A stretch of 64,000 nt of DNA from Metallibacterium scheffleri (GTDB lineage: Bacteria > Pseudomonadota > Gammaproteobacteria > Xanthomonadales > Rhodanobacteraceae): assembly GCF_002077135.1 (NCBI RefSeq), contig NZ_LDOS01000002.1, positions 1,116,001 to 1,180,000 of the forward strand, given 5' to 3'. Numbering within the stretch: the stretch's first letter is position 1; the number at the start of each line of letters is the position of its first letter. Positions 37,874-52,369 of the stretch are shown piece after piece. The position numbers and the translations under genes are program-made. The notes under the pieces were generated by a model, which ran no database searches, was not told where the DNA came from, and saw only the letters and a program-made list of their open reading frames with translations.

Positions 37874-38356
37874 ATGACCATCAAGACCGGTGATCGCATT
37901 CCCGAAGTCAGCGTCAACGTCGTGCGCAACGGCAAGACTGAAACCGTGTCCAGCAGCAGTCTGTTCAAGGGTCGCAAAGTGGTGCTGTTCGCGGTGCCCG
38001 GTGCGTTCACGCCGACCTGCTCGCTCAAGCATCTTCCTTCATACATCGACAGCGCTGAGGCATTTGCCAAACGTGGCGTCGATCTGCTGTGCCTGGCGGT
38101 GAATGACGCCTTCGTGATGCAGGCCTGGGCCGCCAGCGAGAAAGCACCGGCAAGCATCGCCATGCTGGCCGACGGCAACGGTGCATTCACCAGGGCGCTG
38201 GGTCTGGAACTCGACGCCAGCGGTTTCGGCATGGGCCTGCGCGCGCAGCGTTTTGCCCTGTACGCCGACGATGGCGTGATCAAGGTGCTGCACATCGAGG
38301 CGCCAGGCGAGTTCAAGGTTTCCGGCGCTGACGCGATGCTCGCCGAACTGACCTGA
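37874..38356 (+). CDS. Peroxiredoxin, Prx5-type
   Basis: A thiol peroxidase that reduces hydroperoxides, usually with glutathione/glutaredoxin as electron donor. The 160-residue protein has the peroxidatic Cys49 in VPGAFTPTCSLKHLPSYI, the Prx5 signature, and a second Cys at 73 in LLCLAVND. There is no fused glutaredoxin domain. GGAG lies 8 bases before the ATG. It is divergent from hsp20. It is 83 bases upstream of the amidotransferase-like gene that precedes the sulfur-oxidation cluster; a protective role there would be inference. Confidence 0.9.
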   Translation: MTIKTGDRIPEVSVNVVRNGKTETVSSSSLFKGRKVVLFAVPGAFTPTCSLKHLPSYIDSAEAFAKRGVDLLCLAVNDAFVMQAWAASEKAPASIAMLADGNGAFTRALGLELDASGFGMGLRAQRFALYADDGVIKVLHIEAPGEFKVSGADAMLAELT

Positions 38357-38439: not shown

Positions 38440-39132
38440 ATGCTGACGCTGTGTGCCGTGCAACACACCGAGGGCGAATACCTCGGTCTGATGGAAGATC
38501 ACTTCGAGAGCCGTGCGATACGCTTTCTTTATACGCGCCCCTTCGTTGCCGGCGGCAGCATCCCAGCCGACGTGCATGGTTTCGATGGGCTGGTTTTGCT
38601 TGGCGCAGGTCCGCGCGGTGTGGTCAGCGGCGAGATCCTGCCCAGCCTCAACGCCGAGTTGCGCCTGACGGATGCGTTCCTGCAGGCAGGCCTGCCGGTG
38701 ATCGGCGTTGGCGTCGGCAGCCTGATCCTCGCCATCGCCGCCGGTGGTGGCGCGCAAGCATACCCGCTGCGCTTCAGCATCGGCGAAGCGCGACGCAGTG
38801 CTGTCGATGCCCTGGCGGGCCACTTGCCGGAGCGTTTTCCCTACGCCATGTACATGCGCGACCGCGTGCAATTGCCCGCGGATGCACGCGTGTTGGCCAT
38901 CGACGAGAGCGATGCCCCGATGATCTTCCAGGTGCGTGACAACTGCCTCGGTTTCAGCGCGCATCCCGGCATCAAGTCGGGGATGATCGAGGATCTGGTC
39001 ATGGAGTTCGACGAAGTCCCCGAAAACATCCCCCGGACCCTTGCGCAAATGGCCGCGCAACAGCGCGCGATTGCCGATGCCCTGAGCGAAATCATGGTCG
39101 GCGTGGTCAAAATCACCAGCCTGATGCGCTGA
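38440..39132 (+). CDS. Glutamine-amidotransferase-like protein with a degenerate active site
   Basis: A 230-residue protein with the class I GATase fold pattern: N-terminal LTLCAVQHTEGEYLGLMEDHF, then GFDGLVLLGAGPRG, a nucleophile-elbow region at residues 89-93, and a C-terminal GFSAHPG. The catalytic Cys of the GxCxG elbow is replaced: the motif reads GVGVG, with Gly91 in the Cys place. The His of the HPE motif is kept (His175), but its Glu is Gly177. The protein therefore cannot be a normal glutaminase. As I recall, GATase-like genes also accompany the lipoate-assembly genes of some sHdr clusters, which would fit this position, but that link needs checking. It lies 169 bases upstream of dsrE. 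Confidence 0.72.
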   Translation: MLTLCAVQHTEGEYLGLMEDHFESRAIRFLYTRPFVAGGSIPADVHGFDGLVLLGAGPRGVVSGEILPSLNAELRLTDAFLQAGLPVIGVGVGSLILAIAAGGGAQAYPLRFSIGEARRSAVDALAGHLPERFPYAMYMRDRVQLPADARVLAIDESDAPMIFQVRDNCLGFSAHPGIKSGMIEDLVMEFDEVPENIPRTLAQMAAQQRAIADALSEIMVGVVKITSLMR

Positions 39133-39177
39133 GCCACGCTCGCGCTCACGGCTTGTGAATTCGTAAGCCGCGAAACC

Positions 39178-39236
39178 TTGACATTAGCGCCACGCTCATG
39201 TTGCGGCGCCACGTGTTTACATCAGATTCCTCTGAT
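39178..39236 (+). promoter_or_regulatory. Putative control region of the sHdr cluster
   Basis: The gap before dsrE contains TTGACA at 39178-39183, a direct repeat GCGCCACG at 39187-39194 and 39206-39213 (19 bases apart), and a perfect inverted repeat ATCAGA-TTCC-TCTGAT at 39221-39236. No good -10 box fits the TTGACA at normal spacing. An imperfect palindrome centred on GAATTC (39158-39163) lies just upstream. The inverted repeat is a candidate operator; which regulator binds is unknown. Confidence 0.4.
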
Positions 39237-39301
39237 ACAACAAGCCCCGACCTGAGGCCAAATGTCGCGCCTCGCCCTGTACCAATAACGGAGACCCGAC
39301 C

Positions 39302-39682
39302 TTGGCAAAAAAGCTCCTGATCATGCTGGTCAACACCGACCCGCGCAACGGCGAGGAACTGGGCGCGCCGTTCTTCCAGGCCTCGGTGGCCGCCGCCATG
39401 GATTATGAAGTCGAGGTGGTCTGCACCGCGACCGCAGGCCGGCTGATGAAAAAAGGCGTGGCCGAAAAACTCGTGGTCAAGGAAGGTTCGCCCAAGACCG
39501 TATACGACTTCATCAAGGAAGCCCACGAAGCCGGTGTGAAGTTCCTGTGCTGTTCGCCCAACCTCGACCTGTTCGACATGACCAAGGAGGATCTGATTCC
39601 CGAGTGCTCGGGCATCGTCGGTGGCGCCTATGTCATCGAGGAGGTCATGGAAGGCGACAACACGAAGGTGCTCAGCTACTGA
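39302..39682 (+). CDS. dsrE: DsrE-family sulfurtransferase (DsrE3C-like)
   Basis: A small cytoplasmic sulfur-relay protein, 126 residues, the first gene of the sHdr cluster. The DsrE fold is visible as KKLLIMLVNTDPRNGEELG, a central FFQASVAAAMDYEVEVVC, and FLCCSPNLDLF with adjacent Cys83 and Cys84, followed by Cys102 in PECSGIVGG. Cysteines at 83 and 84 agree with what I recall for DsrE3C proteins that exchange sulfur with TusA. The start is a TTG at 39302 with GGAG 8 bases upstream; an internal ATG at residue 8 would remove the first beta-strand. It probably receives or delivers persulfide sulfur from TusA to the sHdr complex. Confidence 0.85.
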   Translation: MAKKLLIMLVNTDPRNGEELGAPFFQASVAAAMDYEVEVVCTATAGRLMKKGVAEKLVVKEGSPKTVYDFIKEAHEAGVKFLCCSPNLDLFDMTKEDLIPECSGIVGGAYVIEEVMEGDNTKVLSY

Positions 39683-39719
39683 TCTCGCAATCCGGCCTGC
39701 ACGGCTGGAGGAGTGCGTT

Positions 39720-40451
39720 ATGACGACCGCATCACTCGCTGTTGGCGACCCGTTTGCGACCACCGAGGTCGCCACGCGCGAAAAACTCGAAGAGATTTTC
39801 GGCGACATCAAATCGCATGCGTTGTATGACCATGAGCTCTATGGCTGCCTCAACTGCGGTATCTGCACCGCCACCTGCCCGGCCGCGCATTACTACGACT
39901 TCTCGCCGCGCGAAATCGTGCAACTGCTGCTGACCGAGAATCTGGAAGGCATCTACGACGCGATGCAGGAAAAGATATGGGCCTGCGCCCAGTGCTACAC
40001 CTGCGCCGCACGCTGCCCGTTCCACAACTCGCCCGGCGGATTGATCATGCTGATGCGCGAAACCGCGATCAAGCACGGCATGCAGTCGGCAAAAGATGTG
40101 CTCAAGCCATTCACGCGCGTACTGATGAAGCTGATCACCACCGGCAACCAGTTGGCCCCCAACATGATCACGGCGGATGCGTTCGCCGACTGGGGGCCAG
40201 GCATCGCGAAGATCAATGCACCGCTGGACGTCCTGCGCAAGGCCATCCCGGTACCCACCATGCACACGCTGGACACCGCCTGGGTGGTGAACATCAAGAC
40301 TTCGATCGAGCTGTACACCATCTGGGAAGCTTCCGGCGTACTCGACCAGCTGGAGACCATCGACCCCAATCTGTTCGATGTGGTCACCGACATCATGGAC
40401 GAGAAGCGCGACGAATATCAGGAGTGGCTTGACGAGCACGAAGCCGCCTAG
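39720..40451 (+). CDS. shdrC1: sHdr complex iron-sulfur subunit C1
   Basis: An electron-carrying ferredoxin-like subunit of the sulfur-oxidising heterodisulfide-reductase-like complex. The 243-residue protein binds two [4Fe-4S] clusters: CLNCGICTATCP (Cys43, 46, 49, 53) and CAQCYTCAARCP (Cys89, 92, 95, 99). The remaining C-terminal part has the SIELYTIWEASGVLDQL segment. A strong GGAGGAG lies upstream of the ATG at 39720; the frame is open further upstream inside dsrE, but that part is not HdrC-like. It is homologous to HdrC of methanogens, where it passes electrons between HdrA and HdrB. Confidence 0.93.
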   Translation: MTTASLAVGDPFATTEVATREKLEEIFGDIKSHALYDHELYGCLNCGICTATCPAAHYYDFSPREIVQLLLTENLEGIYDAMQEKIWACAQCYTCAARCPFHNSPGGLIMLMRETAIKHGMQSAKDVLKPFTRVLMKLITTGNQLAPNMITADAFADWGPGIAKINAPLDVLRKAIPVPTMHTLDTAWVVNIKTSIELYTIWEASGVLDQLETIDPNLFDVVTDIMDEKRDEYQEWLDEHEAA

Positions 40452-40490
40452 CACACGTCCATTTCATCAAGTCAGCAAACGAGGTATCCC

Positions 40491-41867
40491 ATGGCCAGCC
40501 AAGACGAAAAACCAGCGCCCGGTTACACCGGTTTCGGTGCGGAGTGGCGCCCGGTCAAGTTGAGCACCGACGAGGCACAGCGCGCCACGGCCTGGGTCGA
40601 GGCGCGCATCGATCGCCGCGAAATGCTGACGCAGAAAGATCGCGTCCAGGACGTGCGCGACATCATGTGGCAGCTCGAAAAGGACGGCGAGATCGTCGTG
40701 CACCGCATCACCGAACAGCACGAACCGGTGACCGGCAAGACCCTGTATGGATGGGACAAGCGCATCCCCACCAACCAGCTCTGGCACCACAAATCCTGCG
40801 GTCAGTGCGGCAACATCCCCGGCTATCCCAGTTCATTGCTGTGGCTGCAGAACATGCTGGAAATCAAGTATCTGGATGAGACCGACCAGACCTCGTGCAC
40901 GGCGTGGAATTATCACGGCTCCGGCATCGGCAACATCGTCAGCCTGGCCGCGGTATTCCTGCGCAACTTCCATCAGGCTTATGTTTCGTCGATCTCGCAG
41001 GGCCTGCCTGCCGGCTACTACTTCCCGCTGGTGCATTGCGGCACCTCGTTCGGCAATTACAAGGAGGTGCGCGGTTACTTGCTGCACTCGGCCGAACTGC
41101 GCGAGCAAGTCAAGAAGATCCTCGGCAAGCTGGGTCGTCTGGTGGACGGCAAGTTGCTGATCCCGGAAGAGATCGTGCACTACTCCGAGTGGCTGCACGT
41201 GATGCGCGAGCGCATCGCCGAGCATCGCGTAATCGATTGCAGCAACATCCGCGCGACCGTGCATCCGGCCTGCCACGTGCACAAGATGGTGCCGGAGGAC
41301 GTGCTGTACGACGACACGGTGATGGAAGGCAACCGCGTCGCCGTGTCCACCGGACTGCTGCAGACCCTCGGTGCGCAGGTGATCGATTATTCAACTTGGT
41401 ACGACTGCTGCGGCTTCGGCTTCCGCCACATCATCGGCGAGCGCGAGTTCACGCGCTCGTTCGCGATCGACCGCAAGATCAAGGTCGCTGTCGAGGAGGC
41501 CCACTCCGACGTGATGATCGGCCACGATACCGGCTGCATCACCACGCTCGACAAGAGCCAGTGGATCGGCCAGGCGGTGGGCAAGGTCTACCCGCTGTCG
41601 GTCATGGCCGACTGCCAGTTCGCTGCCCTGGTCTGCGGTGCGCACCCCTACAAGCTGGCGCAATTGCACTGGCACGCATCGCCCTTCGAAGGGCTGCTGG
41701 AAAAACTCGGCATCGACTGGGAAAAATCCAAGGCCGAGTTCGAGGCGTATCTCAAGGAGGTCGCCGCGGGTCGCGTGGAAACGCTATACGACCCGAAGCG
41801 CGCCATCACATCCGGGCCTGGTTACGAGAAGCCGGTGCAGCCGGCGCAGATCGAGGTGAATTCATGA
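40491..41867 (+). CDS. shdrB1: sHdr complex subunit B1, CCG-domain protein
   Basis: A likely catalytic subunit of the sHdr complex. HdrB proteins carry cysteine-rich CCG domains that bind noncubane iron-sulfur clusters where disulfides are handled. The 458-residue protein has an N-terminal extension of roughly 95 residues, a first Cys-rich domain (HKSCGQCGNIPGYPSS, then TSCTAWNYHGSG and LVHCGTSFGNY) and a second domain with PACHVHKM, DCCGFGFRHI and HDTGCITTLD. The first domain departs from the textbook CxnCCGxmCxxC spacing, as expected for sHdrB1. Its end overlaps shdrA by ATGA, showing tight translational coupling. Confidence 0.92.
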   Translation: MASQDEKPAPGYTGFGAEWRPVKLSTDEAQRATAWVEARIDRREMLTQKDRVQDVRDIMWQLEKDGEIVVHRITEQHEPVTGKTLYGWDKRIPTNQLWHHKSCGQCGNIPGYPSSLLWLQNMLEIKYLDETDQTSCTAWNYHGSGIGNIVSLAAVFLRNFHQAYVSSISQGLPAGYYFPLVHCGTSFGNYKEVRGYLLHSAELREQVKKILGKLGRLVDGKLLIPEEIVHYSEWLHVMRERIAEHRVIDCSNIRATVHPACHVHKMVPEDVLYDDTVMEGNRVAVSTGLLQTLGAQVIDYSTWYDCCGFGFRHIIGEREFTRSFAIDRKIKVAVEEAHSDVMIGHDTGCITTLDKSQWIGQAVGKVYPLSVMADCQFAALVCGAHPYKLAQLHWHASPFEGLLEKLGIDWEKSKAEFEAYLKEVAAGRVETLYDPKRAITSGPGYEKPVQPAQIEVNS

Positions 41868-42916
41868 CGACTCCGGTATTGGTAGTGGGTGCGGGTCCTT
41901 CCGGACTCTCGGCTGCTCACGCGCTGGCCAGCGCGGGACAAAGCGTGATTTTGGTGGACAAGGCCGACCGTCTCGGCGGCGCGCCGATCCTGTCCGGCTA
42001 CGCCAAGCTGGTGCCATCGGGCGAGTGGGCCAGGGATGCCATCGGCGGCATGGTCGAACGCGTGCGCAAACACGCCAACGTGGAAATTTTCAGCGACACG
42101 CGCGTGACCCGTTTCGACGGCGAGCCCGGCGCATTCGTCGCCGGCCTGTCCAATGGACAGCAACGTGAGGTTGGCGCCGCCATCCTGTGTACCGGCTTCA
42201 CCCATTTTGATTCGGTCAACAAACCGGAATGGGGCTTCGGCACCTATCCCGACGTGGTCACCACCACCCAGGTCGAGCAGATGATCTCCTCGGGCAAGGG
42301 CGTGAAGTGTCCTTCGGATGGACGCGCGCCCGATCGCGTCGCGATCCTGCTGTGCGTGGGTTCGCGCGACCGCCAGATCGGCCGTGAATGGTGCTCCAAG
42401 GTGTGCTGCACGGTCTCGGCCAATATCGCCATGGAAATCCGCGAGGCGCTGCCAAAATGCGCCGTGTACATCTACTACATGGATATCCGCACATTTGGCC
42501 TGTATGAGGACAAGTACTACTGGCAGAGCCAGGAGGAGTACCACGTCAAGTACATCAAGGCGCGTATCGCCGAGGTCACCTCGGATGGCAAACGCCTGAT
42601 CGTCAAGGGAGAAGACACCCTGGTCAAGCGCCCGATCACCATTCCATTCGACATGGTCGTTCACGCGATCGGCATGGACCCGAATATCGAGAACCCCGAC
42701 ATCGCCAAGACCTTCGGCGTGCAACTGGAGCGGCATGGCTATCTGTTGCCTGGGCCAACCTACCGCGCCATGGGCAGCACCTCGCGCCCGGGAGTCTTCG
42801 TCGCGGGTTCTGCGTGCGGCCCGGAGACGATCGACGATTCCATCGCCCAAGGCCAGTCCGCGGCCATGGCGGCACTGGCTGCCCTGCGTGCACCCGCCAC
42901 GGCGCTGGCAGGCTGA
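41864..42916 (+). CDS. shdrA: sHdr complex flavoprotein subunit A
   Basis: The FAD-binding core subunit. The 350-residue protein has an N-terminal dinucleotide-binding motif VVGAGPSGLSAAHALASAG, then ILLCVGSRD (Cys164) and EWCSKVCCTVSANIA (Cys177, 181, 182), the HdrA-type cysteine set for a [4Fe-4S] cluster. The closing FVAGSACGPETIDDSIAQGQSAA is a typical second FAD-contacting block. It is much shorter than methanogen HdrA because it lacks the inserted and C-terminal ferredoxin domains; this short form is characteristic of sHdrA. It starts inside the shdrB1 stop as ATGA. The start chosen here is the one giving the FAD motif at residue 7. Confidence 0.93.
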   Translation: MTTPVLVVGAGPSGLSAAHALASAGQSVILVDKADRLGGAPILSGYAKLVPSGEWARDAIGGMVERVRKHANVEIFSDTRVTRFDGEPGAFVAGLSNGQQREVGAAILCTGFTHFDSVNKPEWGFGTYPDVVTTTQVEQMISSGKGVKCPSDGRAPDRVAILLCVGSRDRQIGREWCSKVCCTVSANIAMEIREALPKCAVYIYYMDIRTFGLYEDKYYWQSQEEYHVKYIKARIAEVTSDGKRLIVKGEDTLVKRPITIPFDMVVHAIGMDPNIENPDIAKTFGVQLERHGYLLPGPTYRAMGSTSRPGVFVAGSACGPETIDDSIAQGQSAAMAALAALRAPATALAG

Positions 42917-42932
42917 GAGCGGCGCTTGCATC

Positions 42933-43775
42933 ATGAACCAACGCGCATCCGCAACGGAGTTGCTGCCGACACTGGACCTCAGCGGCCCCGCCTTGCGCAG
43001 CGGTTTCGAAGAGCTGGTTGCTGCGGCCGAGCCTGGTGGTGGCATCGACGTCTATCTCACCGCGCTGCAGTTCAAGTCCAGGCTGTTCGGCGAGTGGTTC
43101 CTCGGCAAGCAGAGCGCCGCGCTGGATACGCCGCGTTTCCTCGGCTTGTGCACGTTCATGCCCACGGTGCGCCGTCGCGTGGGGGCCTGGCTCGGCAGCA
43201 ACGACTTCGCCGACTTGCATCGCCAGTTGCTGCTGCTGATGCAGCCTGGCACCACGGTGCAGACCCGTCTTGATGCCTTCGTCGCCGCGTTCCCGGCGGA
43301 TCGAACCTGCCGCTGGGCGCGCGATCTGGCGGCCGAGGTCCTGCATTTCTGCGCCCCGGACGAAACGCCACTGATGACACGCTGGATGTGGGATGCGCAA
43401 AGCGGCAGCGGTGTCCTGCGCGAGATCTGGTTCAACGACGACGGTCGCGAGCTCGATCCGCGCAACATTTCCGACCGGCTGCCCACCTTTTTGGCGCTCA
43501 AGAGCGAACTCGAAACCTTCCTGCGCGACAACGGGACTTATCGCGACTTCGGCCTGATGCAGGACCTGCTGTGCGCGCACATCTATTCGCGTTACATCAA
43601 TGATCGCGGCAGCACCTACCTGAAGGGTGACTTTGCCGGCACCGAAGACGCCATGGCGCATACGCGGCGCCTGCTCGGGCTTGATTGTTACGAGCGCGAT
43701 GGCATCCGCATGAAAGTGAAACTTCCGGAAACGATGTCCGTGGCGCTCGCCACGCCGCTGCAACTCGACGCGTGA
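42933..43775 (+). CDS. shdrH: sHdr-associated protein H (conserved, unknown role)
   Basis: A 280-residue protein in the invariant position between shdrA and shdrC2, where known type I sHdr clusters carry a conserved protein named sHdrH or Hyp. The visible features are a mostly helical, soluble composition and few cysteines (only about four), without an iron-sulfur motif. Blocks such as DVYLTALQFKSRLFGEWFLG and RFLGLCTFMPTVRRRV, and YRDFGLMQDLLCAHIYSRYINDRGST (quoted in part), look strongly structured. No catalytic signature is recognised. It is probably a structural or assembly part of the complex, by position only. Confidence 0.8.
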   Translation: MNQRASATELLPTLDLSGPALRSGFEELVAAAEPGGGIDVYLTALQFKSRLFGEWFLGKQSAALDTPRFLGLCTFMPTVRRRVGAWLGSNDFADLHRQLLLLMQPGTTVQTRLDAFVAAFPADRTCRWARDLAAEVLHFCAPDETPLMTRWMWDAQSGSGVLREIWFNDDGRELDPRNISDRLPTFLALKSELETFLRDNGTYRDFGLMQDLLCAHIYSRYINDRGSTYLKGDFAGTEDAMAHTRRLLGLDCYERDGIRMKVKLPETMSVALATPLQLDA

Positions 43776-43784
43776 GGACGATGC

Positions 43785-44540
43785 ATGCCGATCCATGAAA
43801 AGCACCTGATCAGGCCCGAGAATCTCGTTCGCAACGACAAGCTCGCGATCGATGGCGTCGATGTGTCTGGCGACTGGAGCACCTTCATCCAGACCCGCGT
43901 GATCACCGATTACAACGAATCCCTGCAGGAAGAGATCGCCGCCCTGCCTGGTGGCGAATTCATCCACCGCTGCTGGCAATGCGGCTCGTGCACCAACTCC
44001 TGCACGGTCAATGCGCTCAATCCGGATTTCAATCCGCGTTACTGGATCTATCTGATCCGGCTTGGAATGGAACAGGAATTGCTGCGTGACAAAGACATCA
44101 TCTGGCAGTGCGTGTCGTGCAATAAATGCACCTACGCCTGCCCGCGCGATGTGGTCCCGGAGGCGGTCATGCACGCCACCGCGCACTGGCTGGAACTCAA
44201 GGGTTATGTCCCCGAAAAGCCTTCGGTCGTCTTCGACGATGTGTTCTCGGGACAGGTCTTCGCCAAGGGCAAGATCGAAGAAGGCCGTCTGATGCGCAAA
44301 TTCTTCGTGCGCACCCAGCAGAAGCTGGCGCAACCTTGGCTGATCGCCATGGTCAGGGGCCTGGTCTCGCGTCTGCCCATCACCCTGCTGATGCGACTGG
44401 GCCTCGCCGGCATGGTCCATCCGCGCACGCGCAACTGGGGTCGCACACGCGACGCCATCAACGAGTATGTGGGTGAGCAGAACGCCAAGCATCGCAGCGC
44501 GCTGGGCTTGCCCGCGCAATCCACGGAGTCGCACTCATGA
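43785..44540 (+). CDS. shdrC2: sHdr complex iron-sulfur subunit C2
   Basis: The second HdrC-like electron-transfer subunit, 251 residues. It binds two [4Fe-4S] clusters: CWQCGSCTNSC (Cys63, 66, 69, 73) and CVSCNKCTYACP (Cys109, 112, 115, 119). The N-terminal 60 residues are a specific extension (IRPENLVRNDKLAIDG, GDWSTFIQTRVITDY). The C-terminal part has a hydrophobic helix region around LISRLPITLLMRLGLAGMV. The gene starts 10 bases after shdrH and its end overlaps shdrB2 by four bases, so the run is translated together. Confidence 0.93.
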   Translation: MPIHEKHLIRPENLVRNDKLAIDGVDVSGDWSTFIQTRVITDYNESLQEEIAALPGGEFIHRCWQCGSCTNSCTVNALNPDFNPRYWIYLIRLGMEQELLRDKDIIWQCVSCNKCTYACPRDVVPEAVMHATAHWLELKGYVPEKPSVVFDDVFSGQVFAKGKIEEGRLMRKFFVRTQQKLAQPWLIAMVRGLVSRLPITLLMRLGLAGMVHPRTRNWGRTRDAINEYVGEQNAKHRSALGLPAQSTESHS

Positions 44541-45460
44541 CTGAGAAGTACCGCAAGGTTGCCTACTATCCAGGCTGTGCACTGGAAGGTACCGGCCATG
44601 CCTACAACCGCTCGACCAAGGAAGTCGGCAAGGCGTTGGGCCTGGAACTGGTCGAGCTCGAGAACTGGAACTGCTGCGGTGCGATGGAGGTCAAGAATGT
44701 CGACCCCAAGTTGCAGACTTTCCTGTCCGCGCGCAATCTGAAGATCGCCGAAGACATGGGCTTCGATACCGTGATGGCGCCCTGCAACGGCTGTTACCAC
44801 AACCTCAAGAAGGCCGAGTATGACCTCAGCCATGACGCCGGCTCGCGCGAAACCGTCGCCAAGCTCGCCGCCAAGTCCGGCGACCAGCCTTATGAAGCCG
44901 GCAATGTCGAGACCATTCACGCATTGGAATGGATCCGCGACGCGATCGGCACCGACGAACTGCACAAGCGCATCAAGAATTCGCTTAACGGGCTGAAGAT
45001 CGCCAATTACTACGGCTGCATGTACACCCGCCCGCGCCACATTTTCCCGGAAAAAGACAAGGGCCCTGGCTCGGAGTCGACCAGCAAGCCGCATTTCATG
45101 GACGACCTGCTCGCCGCCGCGGGCGCGGTGAATGTCGAGTTTCCGCTGAAGACAGCCTGTTGTGGTGGCGCGCACACGCTGTCGGACAGCGACACCTCGA
45201 CGCGTCTGGTGCTGAACATCCTGACCACCGCCGAGGCCTGTGGCGCCGAGGTCATCGCCACGGAGTGCCCGACCTGCCACTCCGGGTTGGAGATGCATCA
45301 GATCCGCGCCGAGAAAGTGCTGGGCAAGAAGACCAACGTCAAGATCCTGTACTTCACGCAACTGTTGGGCATGGCGCTGGGCCTGTCCGCGCGCAAGGTT
45401 GGCGTGAACGAAAACTTCTCCGAATCGCGCGACCTGCTCAAGGCCAAGGGGTTGGGCTGA
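44537..45460 (+). CDS. shdrB2: sHdr complex subunit B2, two canonical CCG domains
   Basis: A 307-residue HdrB-like protein with two full CCG domains. The first has Cys14 (YYPGCALEGTG), the Cys46-Cys47 pair (NWNCCGAME) and Cys83/Cys86 (PCNGC). The second has YYGCMYTRP, TACCGGAHTL and TECPTCHSGLEMHQ. Both keep the spacing that binds noncubane [4Fe-4S] clusters in methanogen HdrB, so it is the best candidate for the disulfide- or persulfide-processing site of the complex. It overlaps shdrC2 by ATGA at its start, and its stop overlaps the next ORF as TGATG. Confidence 0.94.
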   Translation: MTEKYRKVAYYPGCALEGTGHAYNRSTKEVGKALGLELVELENWNCCGAMEVKNVDPKLQTFLSARNLKIAEDMGFDTVMAPCNGCYHNLKKAEYDLSHDAGSRETVAKLAAKSGDQPYEAGNVETIHALEWIRDAIGTDELHKRIKNSLNGLKIANYYGCMYTRPRHIFPEKDKGPGSESTSKPHFMDDLLAAAGAVNVEFPLKTACCGGAHTLSDSDTSTRLVLNILTTAEACGAEVIATECPTCHSGLEMHQIRAEKVLGKKTNVKILYFTQLLGMALGLSARKVGVNENFSESRDLLKAKGLG

Positions 45461-45918
45461 TGGGCACCCTGCTGGAAACCGCCGAGGCCATCGAAGCCAT
45501 GCCTGATGCAGCCTTTGCCGCAGACAGCGCCGCGGTGCGCAGCACCTTGCTGCATGCCGGCGAGTTCATCATGGAGCGTTGGCTGCAGGCACAGGGCATG
45601 CAGCCCACCGATGAACGGCATGAAGGCTTTCGCCTGCTTGCATTGCAGCGCCAGGCAGCCTGCGCGGACGCTACGTTCAATGCCTGCCGCGAGAGTTGCC
45701 GCGAGCTCGTTTACCAGTGCAACGTTGCCGATGCCGCCAACGACACGCACGAACGTGCGCAACATTTGCGCCTGGCGGCCAGCGTCACCAAGCACCTCGC
45801 CTTGTTCATCGATGGCAAGCTGGAAAACAAGGCACTCGGCGAATTCTGCTGCTCGTCGCGTCCGCTGCGCGCGCAGGATGCCAGCGCCGACCCTGTCGCC
45901 AGTCAAGACCAGAATTGA
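45460..45918 (+). CDS. Undescribed six-cysteine protein in the sHdr cluster
   Basis: A 152-residue protein that I do not recognise. Its ATG overlaps the shdrB2 stop (TGATG), so it is almost certainly translated and belongs to the operon. It is predicted helical and soluble, with no signal peptide. It carries six cysteines: Cys68, then Cys76, Cys80 and Cys87 in NACRESCRELVYQC, and an adjacent pair Cys130-Cys131 in GEFCCSSRP. The CxxxCx6C spacing is not that of ferredoxins or CCG domains. It is not a GcvH/LbpA-like lipoyl protein, since no lipoyl-Lys motif is present. Metal or cluster binding, or a persulfide-carrying role, are possible but unproven. Confidence 0.75.
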   Translation: MGTLLETAEAIEAMPDAAFAADSAAVRSTLLHAGEFIMERWLQAQGMQPTDERHEGFRLLALQRQAACADATFNACRESCRELVYQCNVADAANDTHERAQHLRLAASVTKHLALFIDGKLENKALGEFCCSSRPLRAQDASADPVASQDQN

Positions 45919-46068
45919 CACGCGCCATGGCCAGCGCATGCACGCACAGTCATTCCCACCGGTTTGCCGTGCAACTCCGTTGTTCGTGGTTGCGCAAGAA
46001 CAGGCCGATAACCTGATTTTGCAATTCATCGTCATGACACACCGCATCACCCATCGAGGAACCACTCC

Positions 46069-46563
46069 ATGAGCAGCAACGAACCCGCCAAGAACATGTC
46101 GATCATCGTGACCAAGGGCACGCTGGACTGGGCCTATCCGCCGTTCATTCTGGCCACCACGGCCGCCGCGATGGGACTCGAGGTGACCATGTTTTTCACG
46201 TTTTACGGACTTGTGCTGCTGAAGAAGGACCTCAATCTGTCCATCTCGACCCTGGGCAATTCCGCCATGGCCATGCCAATGATGGGTGCGCACATGGTGA
46301 TGCCTAATCTGGTCTCGGCGATCCCCGGTGTCGATGCAATGGTCACCTCCATGATGAAGAATCTGATCAAGAAAAAAGGCGTGGCATCCATCGAGGATCT
46401 GCGCGCAGCCGCGGTCGAATCGGAAGTTCACATGATCGCCTGCCAGATGACCATGGACTTGTTCGAGTACAAGCAGTCCGACCTGATCGACGGCCTCACC
46501 ATCGGTGGTGCCGCCACGTACATCGAAACCGCCACCAAGTGCGACATCAACCTGTACATCTGA
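46069..46563 (+). CDS. dsrE2: DsrE2-family sulfur-transfer protein
   Basis: A 164-residue DsrE2-type protein. The family pattern is clear: SIIVTKGTLDWAYPPFILATTAAAMG (here quoted as part of residues 11-36), MFFTFYGLVLLKK, the Met-rich MAMPMMGAHMVMPN, and VHMIACQMTMDLF with the conserved Cys125, followed by DLIDGLTIGGAATYIE. A second Cys (158) is near the C-terminus. DsrE2 proteins are thought to be membrane-associated partners of TusA and rhodanese in sulfur oxidisers. GAGGA lies upstream of the ATG. It follows a 150-base gap, so it may have its own promoter. Confidence 0.9.
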   Translation: MSSNEPAKNMSIIVTKGTLDWAYPPFILATTAAAMGLEVTMFFTFYGLVLLKKDLNLSISTLGNSAMAMPMMGAHMVMPNLVSAIPGVDAMVTSMMKNLIKKKGVASIEDLRAAAVESEVHMIACQMTMDLFEYKQSDLIDGLTIGGAATYIETATKCDINLYI

Positions 46564-46589
46564 CTTTCACGAACCACGAGGAGAACACC

Positions 46590-46817
46590 ATGGCTGACCA
46601 AATGCTCGATGCGAAAGGCCTGAACTGCCCGCTGCCGATCCTGCGCACCAAAAAGGCACTCAAGGACATGGCCATCGGTGACGTGCTGACCGTGCAGGCC
46701 ACCGATCCGGGTGCGGTCAAGGATTTCGAGGCGTTCTGCCGCACCACCGGCAACGAGCTGGTCGATTCCAGCAATGCCAACGGCGAATACCACTTCCGCA
46801 TACGCCGCAAGCAGTGA
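46590..46817 (+). CDS. tusA: TusA-like sulfur carrier protein
   Basis: A 75-residue sulfur carrier of the TusA/SirA family. The sulfur-binding cysteine is Cys13 in the diagnostic CPxP motif (GLNCPLPILRTKKAL), followed by the usual ATDPGAVKDFEAFCRTTGNEL. In sulfur oxidisers TusA carries persulfide or thiosulfonate sulfur to the sHdr or rDsr system; in other bacteria it serves tRNA thiolation. Its position 26 bases after dsrE2 supports the oxidative role. GAGGAG precedes the ATG at 46590. Confidence 0.95.
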   Translation: MADQMLDAKGLNCPLPILRTKKALKDMAIGDVLTVQATDPGAVKDFEAFCRTTGNELVDSSNANGEYHFRIRRKQ

Positions 46818-46953
46818 ATGAAACAGCTTGCCCATATGCCTGATGCCTTGGCGCACGCGACCATGAATCGCTGGCATGCGTGCGATGCTGCAAGGATTCC
46901 GGCCTGGCCCTTGCGCACCGACCGGCACGGCTCGGGCCTGCGGGAGTTTTTTT

Positions 46954-48036
46954 GTGTCTGAATCACTGCGCGTGCTCGATCTTGGCATGGTCCCCGCGCC
47001 CCGCTCGCAGGCCTTGTTCCACGGCATTGCCAGCGTGATGCATGACGGTGATGACCCGGTACTGACCCTGGTCAGCCCACAACAGCCCTATGTGTGCATC
47101 GGCATGCATCAGGATGTCGTGGCCGAGGTCGACGAGGCTTACTGCCGTGATGCCGGACTACCCGTGCTGCGCCGCCAAGTCGGCGGTGGCGCGGTGTACC
47201 TGGATCGCAATCAGCTGTTCTTCCACTTCATCTATCCGGTGAACAAGGCGCCGCGTCGTGTTACCGATCTGTACACGCATTTCGTCGCGCCGGTGCTGGC
47301 CACCTACCAGGCGTTCGGCATCGATGCCCGCCTGCGCCCCATCAACGACATCCACGTCAATGATCGCAAGATCGGCGGCACCGGTGCGGCACAAATCGGC
47401 GACGCCACGATTTTCGTCGGCAGTTTCATGCTCGACTTCGATGTCGAAACCATGGCGCGCTGCCTCAAGGTGCCCTCCGAGAAATTTCGCGACAAGTTGC
47501 GCGGCACGCTGCAGGACTACATCACCACCATGCGCCGCGAGCTGGGCTCGATTCCGCCGCGCGAGACGTTGGTCGCACGCTTTCTGCTCGATGTCGGCGA
47601 GCACCTCCGAGTCGAGCCACGGCACGACGAGCTGCGTGATGATGAAATCCGCGCCGTCGACGAATGGGAGCGGCAATTGCAGGAACCCGACTGGCTCTAC
47701 CAACCCAACCGCCGACGCTTCGCCGAGGGCGTGAAGATCACCGGCGGCGTGCACCTCGGTGAAGCCATGCACAAGGCACGTGGCGGCTTGGTGCGCGTGC
47801 GTCTGCTGAGTCAGAACCAGCGCATCGCCGATGTGGACATCAGCGGCGATTTCACCTGCATTCCTGCCTCGGGTGTCGAGGCCCTGGCGCATGCGCTGCG
47901 CGACCTCGATCTGGCAAGCGCCGACATGACTCCGCGCATCGCACAGCACATGACCACGCTCGGACTGGATCTGCCCGGTGTGGATGCCGCAGACATCGCA
48001 AGCGCGATCCGCGGCGCCTGCGCGCAGGGGGATTGA
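46954..48036 (+). CDS. slpl(AB): Lipoate-protein ligase of the sLpl(AB) type
   Basis: Activates lipoate or octanoate with ATP and attaches it to a lipoyl domain. The 360-residue protein has the LplA/BirA-type catalytic domain: RRQVGGGAVYLDRNQLFFHF for the adenylate loop, and NDIHVNDRKIGGTGAAQ with the conserved Lys. A C-terminal accessory domain follows (EGVKITGGVHLGEAMHK, then RGGLVRVRLLSQNQRIADV), giving the fused A-plus-B form. In known sHdr clusters such ligases lipoylate the sulfur-oxidation protein LbpA. I start at the GTG at 46954: GGGAG lies 7 bases upstream and the protein begins SESLRVLDLG. The open frame back to 46876 has no family similarity. Confidence 0.85.
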   Translation: MSESLRVLDLGMVPAPRSQALFHGIASVMHDGDDPVLTLVSPQQPYVCIGMHQDVVAEVDEAYCRDAGLPVLRRQVGGGAVYLDRNQLFFHFIYPVNKAPRRVTDLYTHFVAPVLATYQAFGIDARLRPINDIHVNDRKIGGTGAAQIGDATIFVGSFMLDFDVETMARCLKVPSEKFRDKLRGTLQDYITTMRRELGSIPPRETLVARFLLDVGEHLRVEPRHDELRDDEIRAVDEWERQLQEPDWLYQPNRRRFAEGVKITGGVHLGEAMHKARGGLVRVRLLSQNQRIADVDISGDFTCIPASGVEALAHALRDLDLASADMTPRIAQHMTTLGLDLPGVDAADIASAIRGACAQGD

Positions 48037-48364
48037 ACATGCTGTCGCGCAAGCGCAAGACCATTTCACCCATCCGCATCGGCGCAAGCCGATGTGGTCC
48101 TGCGCGGGATTGCGCAGGGCTCCGTACGGGATCCGCGGCATGCCTGCGGTATCCCAGCTCGTGCACGCACCCGACCGGTCCTGGACAAGAACAACATCCG
48201 GCATGGGTCGTGCGTTCTGGTACTACCCGTGTTGGTTACGACAACAGGCCGTCCGACGCTCGGCATCGCGATCGTTGCCGTCTGCGACCCATTGCAGACG
48301 CAGACATTCGCTGGCGCGCGCGCGACCACCATGCCCCGCAAGGGCCCTTGAGGGAGGGTTCAAT
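48037..48364. other. Intergenic region before the FadL-like gene, with a strong hairpin
   Basis: About 330 bases. Open frames here are short, Arg-rich and unlike any family. A 10-base-pair hairpin capped by a GCAA tetraloop spans 48074-48097 (CCGCATCGGC and GCCGATGTGG), about 37 bases after the ligase stop. It has no U-tract, so it is more likely an RNA 3'-end protector or processing site than a simple terminator. A promoter for the FadL-like gene is expected but not clear. Confidence 0.45.
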
Positions 48365-49699
48365 ATGATTTCCAGAAATTTCAAACGCACACTGTTGTTT
48401 TCGATGTTGCTGGCTTCGGGTGTCGCCTCGGCGACCGACGGCTATTTCCAGCCTGGCTACAGTGTTCAATCCGTGGGCATGGGTGGTGTCGGCATCGCTT
48501 TCCCGCAAGATGCTCTGGCAACTGCTACCAATCCGGCCGGCATGGCCTGGGTCGGCGACCAGGTCAACTTTGGCCTCAGCGTGTTTCGTCCTGATCGCAA
48601 TGCGACCTTTACCTCACAGGCCGGCGCAGCCTCGTTCAGCGGCAATCAGACCCAGCAGTTCTATATCCCCGAGTTCGGCTACAACCACATGCTCAACTCA
48701 CGGCTGGCGGTCGGCATCGCCGTGTTCGGCAACGGCGGCATGAACACCGGCTACAGCTCATTGAATACCGCCACGCGCGGTGCGCAGTGCGCCAATCCGC
48801 AGGTGCTGCAGATGTTCGGCGGCAATGTGCAGCAGTGCCTGGCATCACCTGCCGGTCAACTGGGTGCCTTCGGCGTGGGTTCCGTCGGCGTTGACCTGCA
48901 ACAACTGTTCGTCGCACCGACCGTGGCATGGCGCATCGACGACAACAATTCGATCGGCATCGCGCTCGACTATGTGCATCAGAACTTCGGGGTCACCGGC
49001 ATTCAAGCCTTCCAGGGCTTGTCCAGCAACCCGGCCAATTTGACCAACAACAAGCATGCGCAGTCCGATGGATTCGGCTTCCGCATCGGTTGGACCGGGC
49101 ACATCACGCCGGATCTGACCTTGGGCGCGACCTACCAACCCAAGATCAGCATGAGTCCGTTCAAGCGTTACAACGGTCTGTTCGCCCAGGGTGGCAAGTT
49201 CGACATCCCGGCCAACTACGGCGTGGGCATCGCCTGGAACGCCAGCCCCGGTCTGACCCTCGCCGGCGACGTTGAGCGCATCGATTACGGCAGCATTCCC
49301 GCCATCGCCAACCCGATGATCAACTCGTTGGTTTGCGGCACTCCGTCGAGCTGCGGACTGGGCACGGCCAACGGCAGCGGCTTCGGCTGGAGCAATGTCA
49401 CCGTGGTCAAACTGGGCGCGGCCTGGGCGATGGATTCGCAGTGGACACTACGTGCCGGCTGGAATCACAGCAGTCAACCGATCACCAGCGAAAACGTGCT
49501 GTTCAACGTACTGGCGCCTGGCGTGATCGAGGATCACGTGACCTTGGGTGCAACGTATGCCATGAGTCGTGACCTTGCGTTGTCATTTGACTACGTGCAC
49601 GCCTTCAACAAGACCATCACCGGCACCGGCGCCAGCCAAGGCACGCAGATCGGCATGTCGCAAAACACGGTCGGCTTGTCGCTGGGCTGGAAATATTGA
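48365..49699 (+). CDS. FadL-like outer membrane channel
   Basis: A 444-residue outer-membrane beta-barrel of the FadL/TodX family, which takes up hydrophobic compounds. The signal peptide ends at ASGVASA, and the mature N-terminus has the family hatch pattern GYFQPGYSVQSVGMGGVGIAFPQDAL with the NPAGMAW motif. Alternating hydrophobic strands run to a C-terminal GLSLGWKY ending in an aromatic residue, as outer-membrane proteins do. GGGAGGG lies upstream of the ATG. It ends the sulfur cluster on the same strand. Uptake of elemental sulfur or a polysulfide-like substrate is an attractive but unproven role; fatty acid or aromatic uptake is the default. Confidence 0.85.
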   Translation: MISRNFKRTLLFSMLLASGVASATDGYFQPGYSVQSVGMGGVGIAFPQDALATATNPAGMAWVGDQVNFGLSVFRPDRNATFTSQAGAASFSGNQTQQFYIPEFGYNHMLNSRLAVGIAVFGNGGMNTGYSSLNTATRGAQCANPQVLQMFGGNVQQCLASPAGQLGAFGVGSVGVDLQQLFVAPTVAWRIDDNNSIGIALDYVHQNFGVTGIQAFQGLSSNPANLTNNKHAQSDGFGFRIGWTGHITPDLTLGATYQPKISMSPFKRYNGLFAQGGKFDIPANYGVGIAWNASPGLTLAGDVERIDYGSIPAIANPMINSLVCGTPSSCGLGTANGSGFGWSNVTVVKLGAAWAMDSQWTLRAGWNHSSQPITSENVLFNVLAPGVIEDHVTLGATYAMSRDLALSFDYVHAFNKTITGTGASQGTQIGMSQNTVGLSLGWKY

Positions 49700-49713
49700 T
49701 GCATGAACCGCGG

Positions 49714-49743
49714 ACCGCGACAGGCACTCGTGTCTGTCGCGGT
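49714..49743. terminator. Terminator-like hairpin between fadL-like gene and gyrA
   Basis: Perfect inverted repeat ACCGCGACAG and CTGTCGCGGT (10 base pairs) between the convergent fadL-like gene and gyrA. No clear U-run follows in either direction, so efficient intrinsic termination is uncertain. Confidence 0.55.
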
Positions 49744-49759
49744 CATCGCAAGTCGCCGC

Positions 49760-52369
49760 TCACACCCCGGGGGTGTTTTCGGTGTCGATGATGTCCGTGT
49801 CACCGTCTGCAGCCGCCGCGTCGGATTGACCATCCACGCGCTCGTCATCATCCAGCGCCAACCGCACCACGCCGACCAGACTCTCGTCCGCAGGCAGGCG
49901 GATCAGCGTCACGCCCTGCGTATTGCGGCCCAACTGCGAAACCTCCGCCACGCGCGTGCGCACCAGCGTGCCGCGATCGGAAATCAATACCAGACCCTGC
50001 TCGGGTTGTACCTGCACTGCGGCGACCAGCGCGCCGTTGCGCTCCGAGCACTGAATGGCGATCACACCCTGCGTGCCGCGACCCTTGCGCGGGAACTCAT
50101 CCAGTGCGGTGCGTTTGCCGTAGCCGCGCGCGGTCGCGGCGAGAATATCGCCGTCCGCCGCTACGATCAGGCTGACCACCTGCTCGCCTTCGGCCAGTCG
50201 CATGCCGCGCACACCCGTTGCCGTGCGCCCCATCGAGCGGACCGTCTCTTCGTCGAAGCGCACCGCCTTGCCATTGCTGGCGAACAACATGATGTCGCGA
50301 CGACCATCGGTCAGGCACACGTCGACGAGCGCATCGCCTGCATCCAGATTGATCGCGATTTTGCCGCGCTGCAACCGGTAGGCAAATTCACTCAATGGAG
50401 TCTTTTTCACTGTGCCATGGCGCGTGGCGAAGAACACGTATTGGCCGCTGTCGAAAGCATGCACCGGCAACACGGCCTGTACCTTCTCGCCAGCTTCCAA
50501 GGGCAGCAGGTTGACGATGGGCTTGCCGCGCGCGCCCGGGCCGGCGTCGGGGATCATATAAACCGTTAGCCAGAACACACGCCCGGCACCCGTGAACACC
50601 AGCAAGGTGTCGTGCGTGTTGACCACCCACAGCTGCTCGATGAAATCCTCTTCCTTCATCGCCGTGGCCGAGCGACCCTTGCCACCGCGACGCTGTTCGC
50701 GATAAATCGTCAGCGGCTGCCGCTTGACGTAGCCCGCATGCGAGAGCGTGACCACGACGTCCTCGGGCGCGATCAGATCAAGCATGTCGAGATCATCCTG
50801 CGAAGCCTGGATGACGGTGCGGCGCTCATCGCCATATTCTTCGCGAATCGATTGCAGTTCCTCGCGAATCACCACGAGCAGGCGTTCGGGATCTTCAAGG
50901 ATGAGGATCAGACTGGCGATGGTGTCGAGCAGGTTGCGGTACTCGTCGGTAAGTTTGTCCTGCTCCAGCCCAGTCAGGCGATTCAGGCGCATCTCGAGGA
51001 TTTCCTTGGCCTGCGCCTCGGAAAGCTGGTAGCCGGATGTGCCCAGCCCCAAGCCAGGCAGCAAATCCTCGGGGCGCGACTGTGCCGCACCGGCCGCACC
51101 CAGCAGCGTGCGCACCAGGCCCGGCTCCCATACCCGCGCGAGCATGCGTTCGCGCGCTTCTTGTGGCGAGGCCGAAGTCTTGATCAGCTCGATCATCACG
51201 TCGATGTTGGCCAACGCGACGGTGAGGCCTTCGAGAATATGCGCGCGCGCGCGCGCCTTGCGCAAATCAAAAATCGTGCGCCGGACCACGACTTCGCGGC
51301 GATGGCGGATGAATGCTTCGAGCACCTGCTTGAGATTCAACAGGCGTGGCTGGCCATCGATCAGCGCGACCATGTTGATGCCGAACACCGTCTGCATTTG
51401 CGTCTGCTGATACAGGTTGTTGAGCACCACATCGCCCATCGCGTCGCGACGGATTTCGATGACGATGCGCATGCCATCCTTGTCGGATTCGTCGCGCAGC
51501 TCCGAGATGCCTTCGAGCTTTTTTTCCTTGACCAGTTCAGCGATCTTCTCGATCAGCCGCGCCTTGTTCACCTGGTAAGGCAACTCGGTGACGATGATGG
51601 TTTCGCGGCCGTTGGGCTCTGATTCGATTTCGGCCCGCGCGCGCACCAGTACGCGGCCGCGGCCGGTGCGGTAAGCCTCGTGGATGCCGGCGGAGCCATT
51701 GATGATCCCGGCAGTGGGGAAGTCCGGCCCGGGGACGTAGCTCAGCAGCGCGTCGACTTCCAGCGCCGGGTCGTTGATCAATGCGACGGTGGCATCGATC
51801 ACCTCGACCAGATTATGCGGTGGAATGTTGGTCGCCATGCCCACGGCAATCCCTGCCGATCCATTGATGAGCAGGTTCGGTACACGCGTGGGCAGCACCA
51901 GCGGTTCGTGTTCGCTTTCGTCGTAGTTGGGTCCGAAATCGACGGTTTCCTTGTCGATATCAGCCATCAGTTCATGAGCCAGGCGCGACAGGCGCACCTC
52001 GGTGTAGCGCATGGCCGCGGCATTGTCGCCATCGACCGAGCCGAAGTTGCCCTGCCCATCCACCAGCAAATAGCGCAACGAGAACGGCTGCGCCATGCGC
52101 ACGATGGTGTCGTAGACCGACTGATCACCATGCGGGTGATATTTGCCGATCACGTCACCGACCACGCGCGCCGATTTCTTGTAGGGCTTGTTCCAGGCGT
52201 TGCCGAGCTCATTCATGGCGAACAACACGCGCCGATGCACCGGCTTGAGGCCGTCGCGCACATCGGGCAGCGCGCGGCCGACGATCACGCTCATGGCATA
52301 GTCGAGATAGCTCTGGCGCATCTCGTCTTCGATGTTGACGCGGATGATTTCTTTGGCGAGTTCGGCCAT
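49760..52369 (-). CDS. gyrA: DNA gyrase subunit A
   Basis: The breakage-reunion subunit of DNA gyrase, a topoisomerase that supercoils DNA with GyrB. The 869-residue protein has the active-site Tyr122 in AAMRYTEV, the [17 protein letters not shown], the GGRGRQG-like box [17 protein letters not shown], and the C-terminal beta-pinwheel repeats ending in an acidic tail. Position 83 is Gln where E. coli has Ser; Stenotrophomonas maltophilia also has Gln83, linked to intrinsic quinolone tolerance. Asp87 is conserved. The -10 candidate TAGTAT lies at 52431-52436 on the minus strand. It is followed by a possible terminator. Confidence 0.97.

Follow-up and report, generated by a model that had tools for sequence, protein, structure and literature searches.

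What is a type I sulfur-oxidising heterodisulfide-reductase-like (sHdr) gene cluster doing in Metallibacterium scheffleri, where did it come from, and how is its partner protein LbpA supplied with lipoate? The cluster occupies positions 38440-49699 of a 64,000-nucleotide stretch (C2:1116001-1180000, here called the window) of a 3.76-Mb genome that is assembled in 5 contigs and 99.56% complete. An earlier note on this DNA had described the sHdr set as complete and as looking functional and had raised lateral gain. Judged from the sequence, the island appears to be a known kind of system in a new host lineage with an unusual cofactor supply, and it was probably acquired laterally by the genus from an alphaproteobacterial source. 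That sHdr occurs across Gammaproteobacteria is already known, as the accessible text of a study with 296 metagenome-assembled genomes (MAGs) states (PMC12345210), and the open-access literature that was searched yielded no paper on sHdr in Rhodanobacter, Rhodanobacteraceae, Xanthomonadales or Metallibacterium.

Phylogenetic placement and insertion site

A tree of the subunits C1, B1 and A was built from 103 rows, namely the window and 102 loci, with 18 of 120 loci left out for want of usable C1, B1 or A. The genus fell inside a group of 52 rows with a support of 100 in the Shimodaira-Hasegawa-like approximate likelihood-ratio test (SH-aLRT). The named members of this group from outside the genus were Alphaproteobacteria save for one Terriglobia MAG, and nine further rows were unclassified MAGs. 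Family f8 (L016-L027), whose sHdr forms a distinct second lineage in the order, stood in another group together with Alpha-, Beta- and Gammaproteobacteria. When the genus (g1) and f8 were forced into one clade, the tree became 320 log units worse and was rejected in the approximately unbiased (AU) test (p-AU 2.95e-42). A second tree was made from the 65 of the 120 loci that had all six proteins, plus the window. In these 66 rows the genus grouped with alphaproteobacterial, unclassified and Terriglobia rows (support 96), and 19 mixed rows were split from the genus and the alphaproteobacterial rows, Rhodobacterales and Hyphomicrobiales included (support 100). B1 was 75-85% identical in rows titled Alphaproteobacteria.

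The site of the island was compared across the genus. On the left it is flanked by prx5 (37874-38356, plus strand) and on the right by gyrA (49760-52369, minus strand), both outside the unit. Of the 13 genomes of the genus, 5 (G127, G129, G130, G132 and G136) had these two genes side by side, and the unit from lipX to fadL lay between them in the window, in L075 (G134) and in G135. Both island ends were also found at the prx5-gyrA site in G133, on two contigs. Contigs ended at the site in G131 and G137, gyrA had other neighbours on the side examined in G126, and only a 46% gyrA paralogue was found in G128. A search that covered each island end separately found no direct repeats within either. 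The two trees, the AU test and the insertion site support the lateral gain that the earlier note suggested but could not show. That note had also judged codon use and GC content by eye to be like those of the neighbouring genes; the coding GC of the island was 0.615 compared to 0.650 for 28 other genes of the window.

Several points weigh against an alphaproteobacterial acquisition. The GC at third codon positions was 0.799 in the island and 0.808 in the same 28 genes, and so resembles its surroundings. The trees were of the quick kind, calculated under LG+G4 with SH-aLRT support only; the three outgroup rows of the 103-row tree did not form one clade, and the 66-row tree was midpoint-rooted. 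Several of the nearest neighbours were unclassified MAGs, and the trees therefore do not single out a donor. Finally, the sHdr unit had other flanks in G128, G130 and G136, and in G127 it lay elsewhere with the prx5-gyrA site empty; the unit may therefore have been gained repeatedly or have moved inside the genus.

Vertical descent, with sHdr ancestral in the order and lost from most of its families, would have to account for the same placements. The presence of a second family with sHdr speaks for it: sHdrB1 was found in 16 of 398 genomes drawn from the order, and 13 of these belonged to f8. However, f8 and the genus were in different clades and a single clade was rejected, the prx5-gyrA site was empty in congeners, and within the family the gene was nearly confined to the genus, with B1 in 10 of 233 genomes, namely 9 of the 13 in the genus and one in another genus. 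Among the remaining 25 genera a single one had B1, on a 3-kb contig, and vertical descent is very unlikely. In the class, sHdrB1 was found in 22 of 369 genomes drawn, the source genome counted; the order and class samples were even draws from larger groups. By title, the 80 named loci, which were the best of 566, comprised 50 Alphaproteobacteria, 6 Gammaproteobacteria, 3 Betaproteobacteria, 1 Terriglobia and 20 without a class. A binning or assembly artefact, which might be feared where many relatives are MAGs, can be set aside almost entirely, as the island lies within a 2.1-Mb contig and the same junctions were found in L075 and G135.

Three placements stood out in the survey. The 3-kb contig (L013/L131, G010:C237) carries an sHdrB1 of the genus's type in a genome of another genus, which could reflect either transfer or a binning error. 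The sHdr cluster of L128, a MAG titled Klebsiella pneumoniae, fell beside Betaproteobacteria rows, and L059, a MAG titled Terriglobia, was placed among alphaproteobacterial rows; a wrong label, contamination or transfer could each explain these two.

LbpA and the supply of lipoate

The published order in Hyphomicrobium denitrificans, dsrE-hdrC1B1A-hyp-hdrC2B2-hyp-lbpA, ends with lbpA in the available text of PMC6067878, and the presence of lbpA in the gene cluster is a linkage feature of type I. In the window the corresponding position (45919-46068) was vacant. Among the comparable loci, lbpA was the next gene after the small gene downstream of B2 in 61 of 62, and the sole exception was L075 from the congener G134. 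Wherever the island occupies the prx5-gyrA site, which is the case in four genomes (the window's, G133, G134 and G135), lbpA was lacking at the cluster position. A remnant of lbpA at 45919-46068 was considered and rejected, as matches there were at chance level only.

The source genome encodes three proteins of the GCV_H family, which were assigned as GcvH, adjoining gcvT- and gcvP-like genes as judged by eye, and two LbpA-like proteins. One of these, at C2:173158-173490, lies about 980 kb from the island beside a DsrE-family gene and fell within the clade formed by sHdr LbpA proteins of the genus, in a tree of 84 rows and 145 columns with many weak forks. The genome thus encodes an LbpA of the sHdr type. 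It grouped with the unlinked copies of G134, G133 and G131, and the unlinked G136 copy grouped with that of G127. An unlinked lbpA beside a DsrE gene was also found in G131, G133 and G136, and G136 has a cluster copy as well; in G134 the DsrE neighbour was not found. Relocation of the cluster's own lbpA was rejected as the simplest account because of these unlinked pairs and because G136 has both copies. In G131, which is 89% complete, the unlinked lbpA-dsrE pair, LipS1, LipS2 and a ligase were found but no sHdrB1; sHdr could have been lost in assembly, or LbpA could form a module of its own there.

Charging of LbpA would fall to the lipoate-protein ligase of the island (about 46987-48036, plus strand, alternative start 46954). 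It matched TIGR00545 and combines the catalytic part and a weak LplB-like end in a single chain, and is thus a fused LplA/LplB protein resembling sLpl(AB). The LplB-like end scored 50.6 bits against NF053749, below the cut-off of 65, and also matched the LplB chain 3r07_C. The ligase grouped with ligases of sHdr loci in the alphaproteobacterial Rhodobacterales and Hyphomicrobiales, in a tree where E. coli LplA formed an extremely long branch and gave no useful root.

The two proteins that accompany such ligases elsewhere, the dedicated lipoyl synthases LipS1 and LipS2, were not found. LipS1 had no match in the source genome, and LipS2 had only a 43.9-bit match at C1:903151, compared to 105-205 bits for clear ones. 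No LipS2 match in the searched genomes and no LipS1 match in the genus reached the curated cut-off, and the calls rest on the gap between scores of at most 59 bits and those of at least 105. Within the genus, clear LipS1 and clear LipS2 (at least 105 bits) were found in the same four genomes, G127, G128, G131 and G133; G137 had a LipS1 match of 21 bits. Both proteins were accordingly not found in 6 of the 9 genomes of the genus that bear sHdr: G000 (the source genome), G130, G134, G135, G136 and G137, which are 99.56, 99, 99, 94, 91 and 81% complete. The four LipS-bearing congeners have a ligase of another type near LipS1, and G128 and G133 also have the window's type. Outside the genus, LipS2 was found in 46 of the 49 sHdr genomes searched: 12 of 12 in f8 (a thirteenth, G411, stood outside the search), 20 of 21 in the class sample, 14 of 15 reached via the loci (4 of these 15 not titled Alphaproteobacteria), and none in the one genome from another genus of the family (G010, 89% complete). 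The exceptions were G871, whose only match (51 bits) lay where a contig ended, and G610 and G010, with weak matches only.

According to the accessible part of PMC10332631, 74.3% of sHdr-containing bacteria have LipS1/S2, so that absence elsewhere is known as a count. The same text reports that LipS1/S2 are nearly always present where sLpl(AB) occurs in bacteria, and asks if they are strictly required for the assembly of LbpA. In the source genome two LipA proteins scored above the curated cut-off. If the ligase attached octanoate and the canonical or the second LipA inserted the sulfur, LipA would replace LipS1/S2 in the maturation of LbpA, a route for and against which the case is close to evenly balanced. 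It is favoured by the two LipA proteins and by the six genomes in which LipS1/S2 were not found, of which three are at least 99% complete. On the other side, the second LipA was also present in G126, a genome in which no sHdrB1 was found, and in the LipS1/S2-bearing G128, and it was not found in G135 or G136. A dedicated role of the second LipA as the replacement was rejected, as its distribution does not follow the loss of LipS. Scavenging, in which the ligase would load free lipoate and LbpA would need no synthase, is unlikely but has a precedent in the sLpl(AB) of Thioalkalivibrio, which takes free lipoate or octanoate as far as the source available to us reports; it would require a supply of lipoate.

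We propose, tentatively and as a reading that has somewhat less than even prospects, that the island branch at prx5-gyrA lost its cluster lbpA and uses the unlinked gene, that in several species without LipS1/S2 LbpA is lipoylated by LipA or through scavenging, and that cofactor supply was rewired within the genus after the alphaproteobacterial gain. If true, such rewiring would be unlike what is expected from the specificity reported so far. Close relatives are split into LipS-bearing and LipS-less carriers of sHdr. The genus offers a natural contrast for the question whether LbpA maturation needs LipS1/S2, because this split makes the requirement testable by comparison and by simple reconstitution.

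The second LbpA-like gene (C2:301344-301676) grouped with a protein adjoining sHdr B1 in G530, and its neighbours are nirK, a NorB-like protein, FdxA and the second LipA. The region (G000:C2:293000-309000; L015 4199-8719 and 11118-15528) also contains a cysK/M-like gene and genes for two CMD-family proteins and for a small protein that, judged by eye, resembles a zinc finger. As a set, fdx-znf-lipA2-CMD was found again in G126, G128, G130, G134 and G137, and so even in a genome (G126) that gave no sHdrB1. Protein-bound lipoate may have some role in this region with nirK and a NO-reductase-like gene.

Known sHdr systems and the predicted function

In H. denitrificans the lip-shdr-lbpA locus, as far as described in the consulted parts of PMC6067878, PMC10332631 and PMC12423496, shares with the window the order dsrE-C1-B1-A-hyp-C2-B2-hyp, sLpl(AB) and lipX. 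In contrast, H. denitrificans has lbpA in the cluster, lipS1-lipT-lipS2 adjoining and Sox feeding, whereas the genome studied here carries its lbpA away from the cluster and gave no LipS1, LipS2 or SoxZ. The earlier note's "complete" is therefore too strong. The lack of lbpA and of all other sulfur-oxidation genes, which the note named as refuting its reading, does not apply, since an LbpA of the sHdr clade is encoded elsewhere in the genome. The alphaproteobacterial loci (L056, L057, L062, L077 and others) hold the nearest named sHdr proteins outside the genus but differ in having lbpA in place wherever the locus extends far enough and in LipS2, clear in 14 of the 15 genomes reached from loci. 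The f8 loci have a type I B1 and belong to the same taxonomic order, and differ in their separate clade and in the LipS2 of all 12 genomes searched. Methanogen HdrABC is distantly homologous in its A, B and C subunits, but the window proteins were far below the curated cut-offs and the gene set differs.

Judged by gene content, the island would work like known sHdr, with the maturation of LbpA probably departing from the described pathway. Sulfane sulfur would enter the cytoplasm and reach the sHdr complex by way of DsrE, DsrE2 and TusA, and the complex would oxidise it to sulfite with lipoyl-LbpA as its partner. LbpA would be supplied by the unlinked gene and charged with octanoate or lipoate by the island's ligase; without LipS1/S2, the sulfur atoms of lipoate would most likely come from one of the two LipA proteins, or ready-made lipoate would be imported. 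The steps in which sHdr receives sulfur and releases sulfite follow what PMC12423496 describes for H. denitrificans.

Sulfur oxidation as the function has its own counterweights. No sulfur-supplying enzyme was identified, SoxZ being the supplier searched for: it was found in 0 of the 13 genomes of the genus, by a search that matched 13 of 34 genomes and 0 of 14 control genomes. In G135 (94% complete, 350 contigs) only GcvH was found and no LbpA whatever, despite its cluster. These gaps, together with the missing linked lbpA and LipS1/S2, would fit an intact cluster that no longer supports sulfur oxidation and is decaying, with lbpA and lip genes lost and Sox absent. However, every frame in the window is intact, C1, B1, A, C2 and B2 are 96-100% identical in G135, and the unlinked LbpA is also retained in G134. 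In addition, 5 of 6 sHdr-bearing f8 genomes likewise gave no SoxZ, so Sox is not a requirement, and we consider decay improbable. That the pathway looks functional, as the earlier note put it, is what we infer from intact sequence only.

Genes of the island and the chemistry of lipX

The eleven genes from dsrE to fadL (39302-49699), all on the plus strand, were open and undamaged at or very near the coordinates first given, so the six core subunits and the accessory genes named in the earlier note are all real frames. The unit of other loci is opened, as here, by a DsrE-family sulfurtransferase (39302-39682, TTG start; Pfam DrsE_2/DsrE). It is followed on the one strand by the type I order C1-B1-A-H-C2-B2, an order seen again in dozens of loci, so that the arrangement is not chance. 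sHdrC1 (39720-40451) has a 4Fe-4S dicluster domain (Pfam Fer4_8, NCBIfam HdrC-related), and sHdrB1 (40491-41867) a CCG domain (Pfam CCG, NCBIfam HdrB-related). The FAD protein sHdrA (41864-42916; Pyr_redox_2 and HdrA-like, NCBIfam HdrA-related) aligned over 340 residues with the solved structure 6tjr (E 1.6e-170), which we take to be sHdrA of H. denitrificans. sHdrH (hyp, 42933-43775) had no Pfam or NCBIfam match and was assigned by position and by tblastn homologues in other loci. sHdrC2 (43785-44540) has a 4Fe-4S dicluster domain and sHdrB2 (44537-45460) two CCG stretches, both from Pfam and NCBIfam. The 4Fe-4S and CCG domains were intact, in agreement with the earlier note, and the cysteine columns of B1 were invariant across 16 aligned sequences. 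The ATGA overlaps that the note had described were found at B1/A and C2/B2 and the TGATG overlap at B2 and the small gene, whereas the remaining junctions did not overlap.

The small conserved gene (45460-45918) has no assigned function and corresponds in position to the second hyp of Hyphomicrobium, which there separates hdrB2 from lbpA. A B2 match was obtained in 68 of the 80 named loci, and the small gene was present in all 62 that had at least 1500 bases beyond B2. Downstream of the vacant lbpA position follow DsrE2 (46069-46563; NCBIfam SulfCarrDsrE2 226.8 bits, cut-off 210) and TusA (46590-46817; Pfam TusA), so that DsrE-type sulfurtransferases and TusA accompany the sHdr genes as in type I. 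In 7 genomes of the genus, the window's included, the ligase is followed by a FadL/Toluene_X outer-membrane channel (48365-49699 in the window; Pfam PF03349). An inverted repeat with 15-nt arms (49713-49744), found by a repeat search, is a possible terminator between the convergent fadL and gyrA.

On the other side the island begins with a lipX-like gene (38440-39132, plus strand), which, like the small gene, is a member of the cluster that the earlier note overlooked. It had no Pfam match and weak matches to NCBIfam amidotransferases. Homologues adjoin dsrE, slpl or fadL in other sHdr loci, and 71 loci, some from genomes included twice, carry one. At the position that we take, judged by eye, to be that of the expected nucleophile, cysteine was not present in any of the 71, which had glycine in 57, glutamate in 13 and asparagine in 1; in the window's protein the residue is glycine. 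The name lipX and the description as a putative glutamine amidotransferase come from PMC10332631, as worded in its accessible text. This published name may misrepresent the chemistry of lipX.

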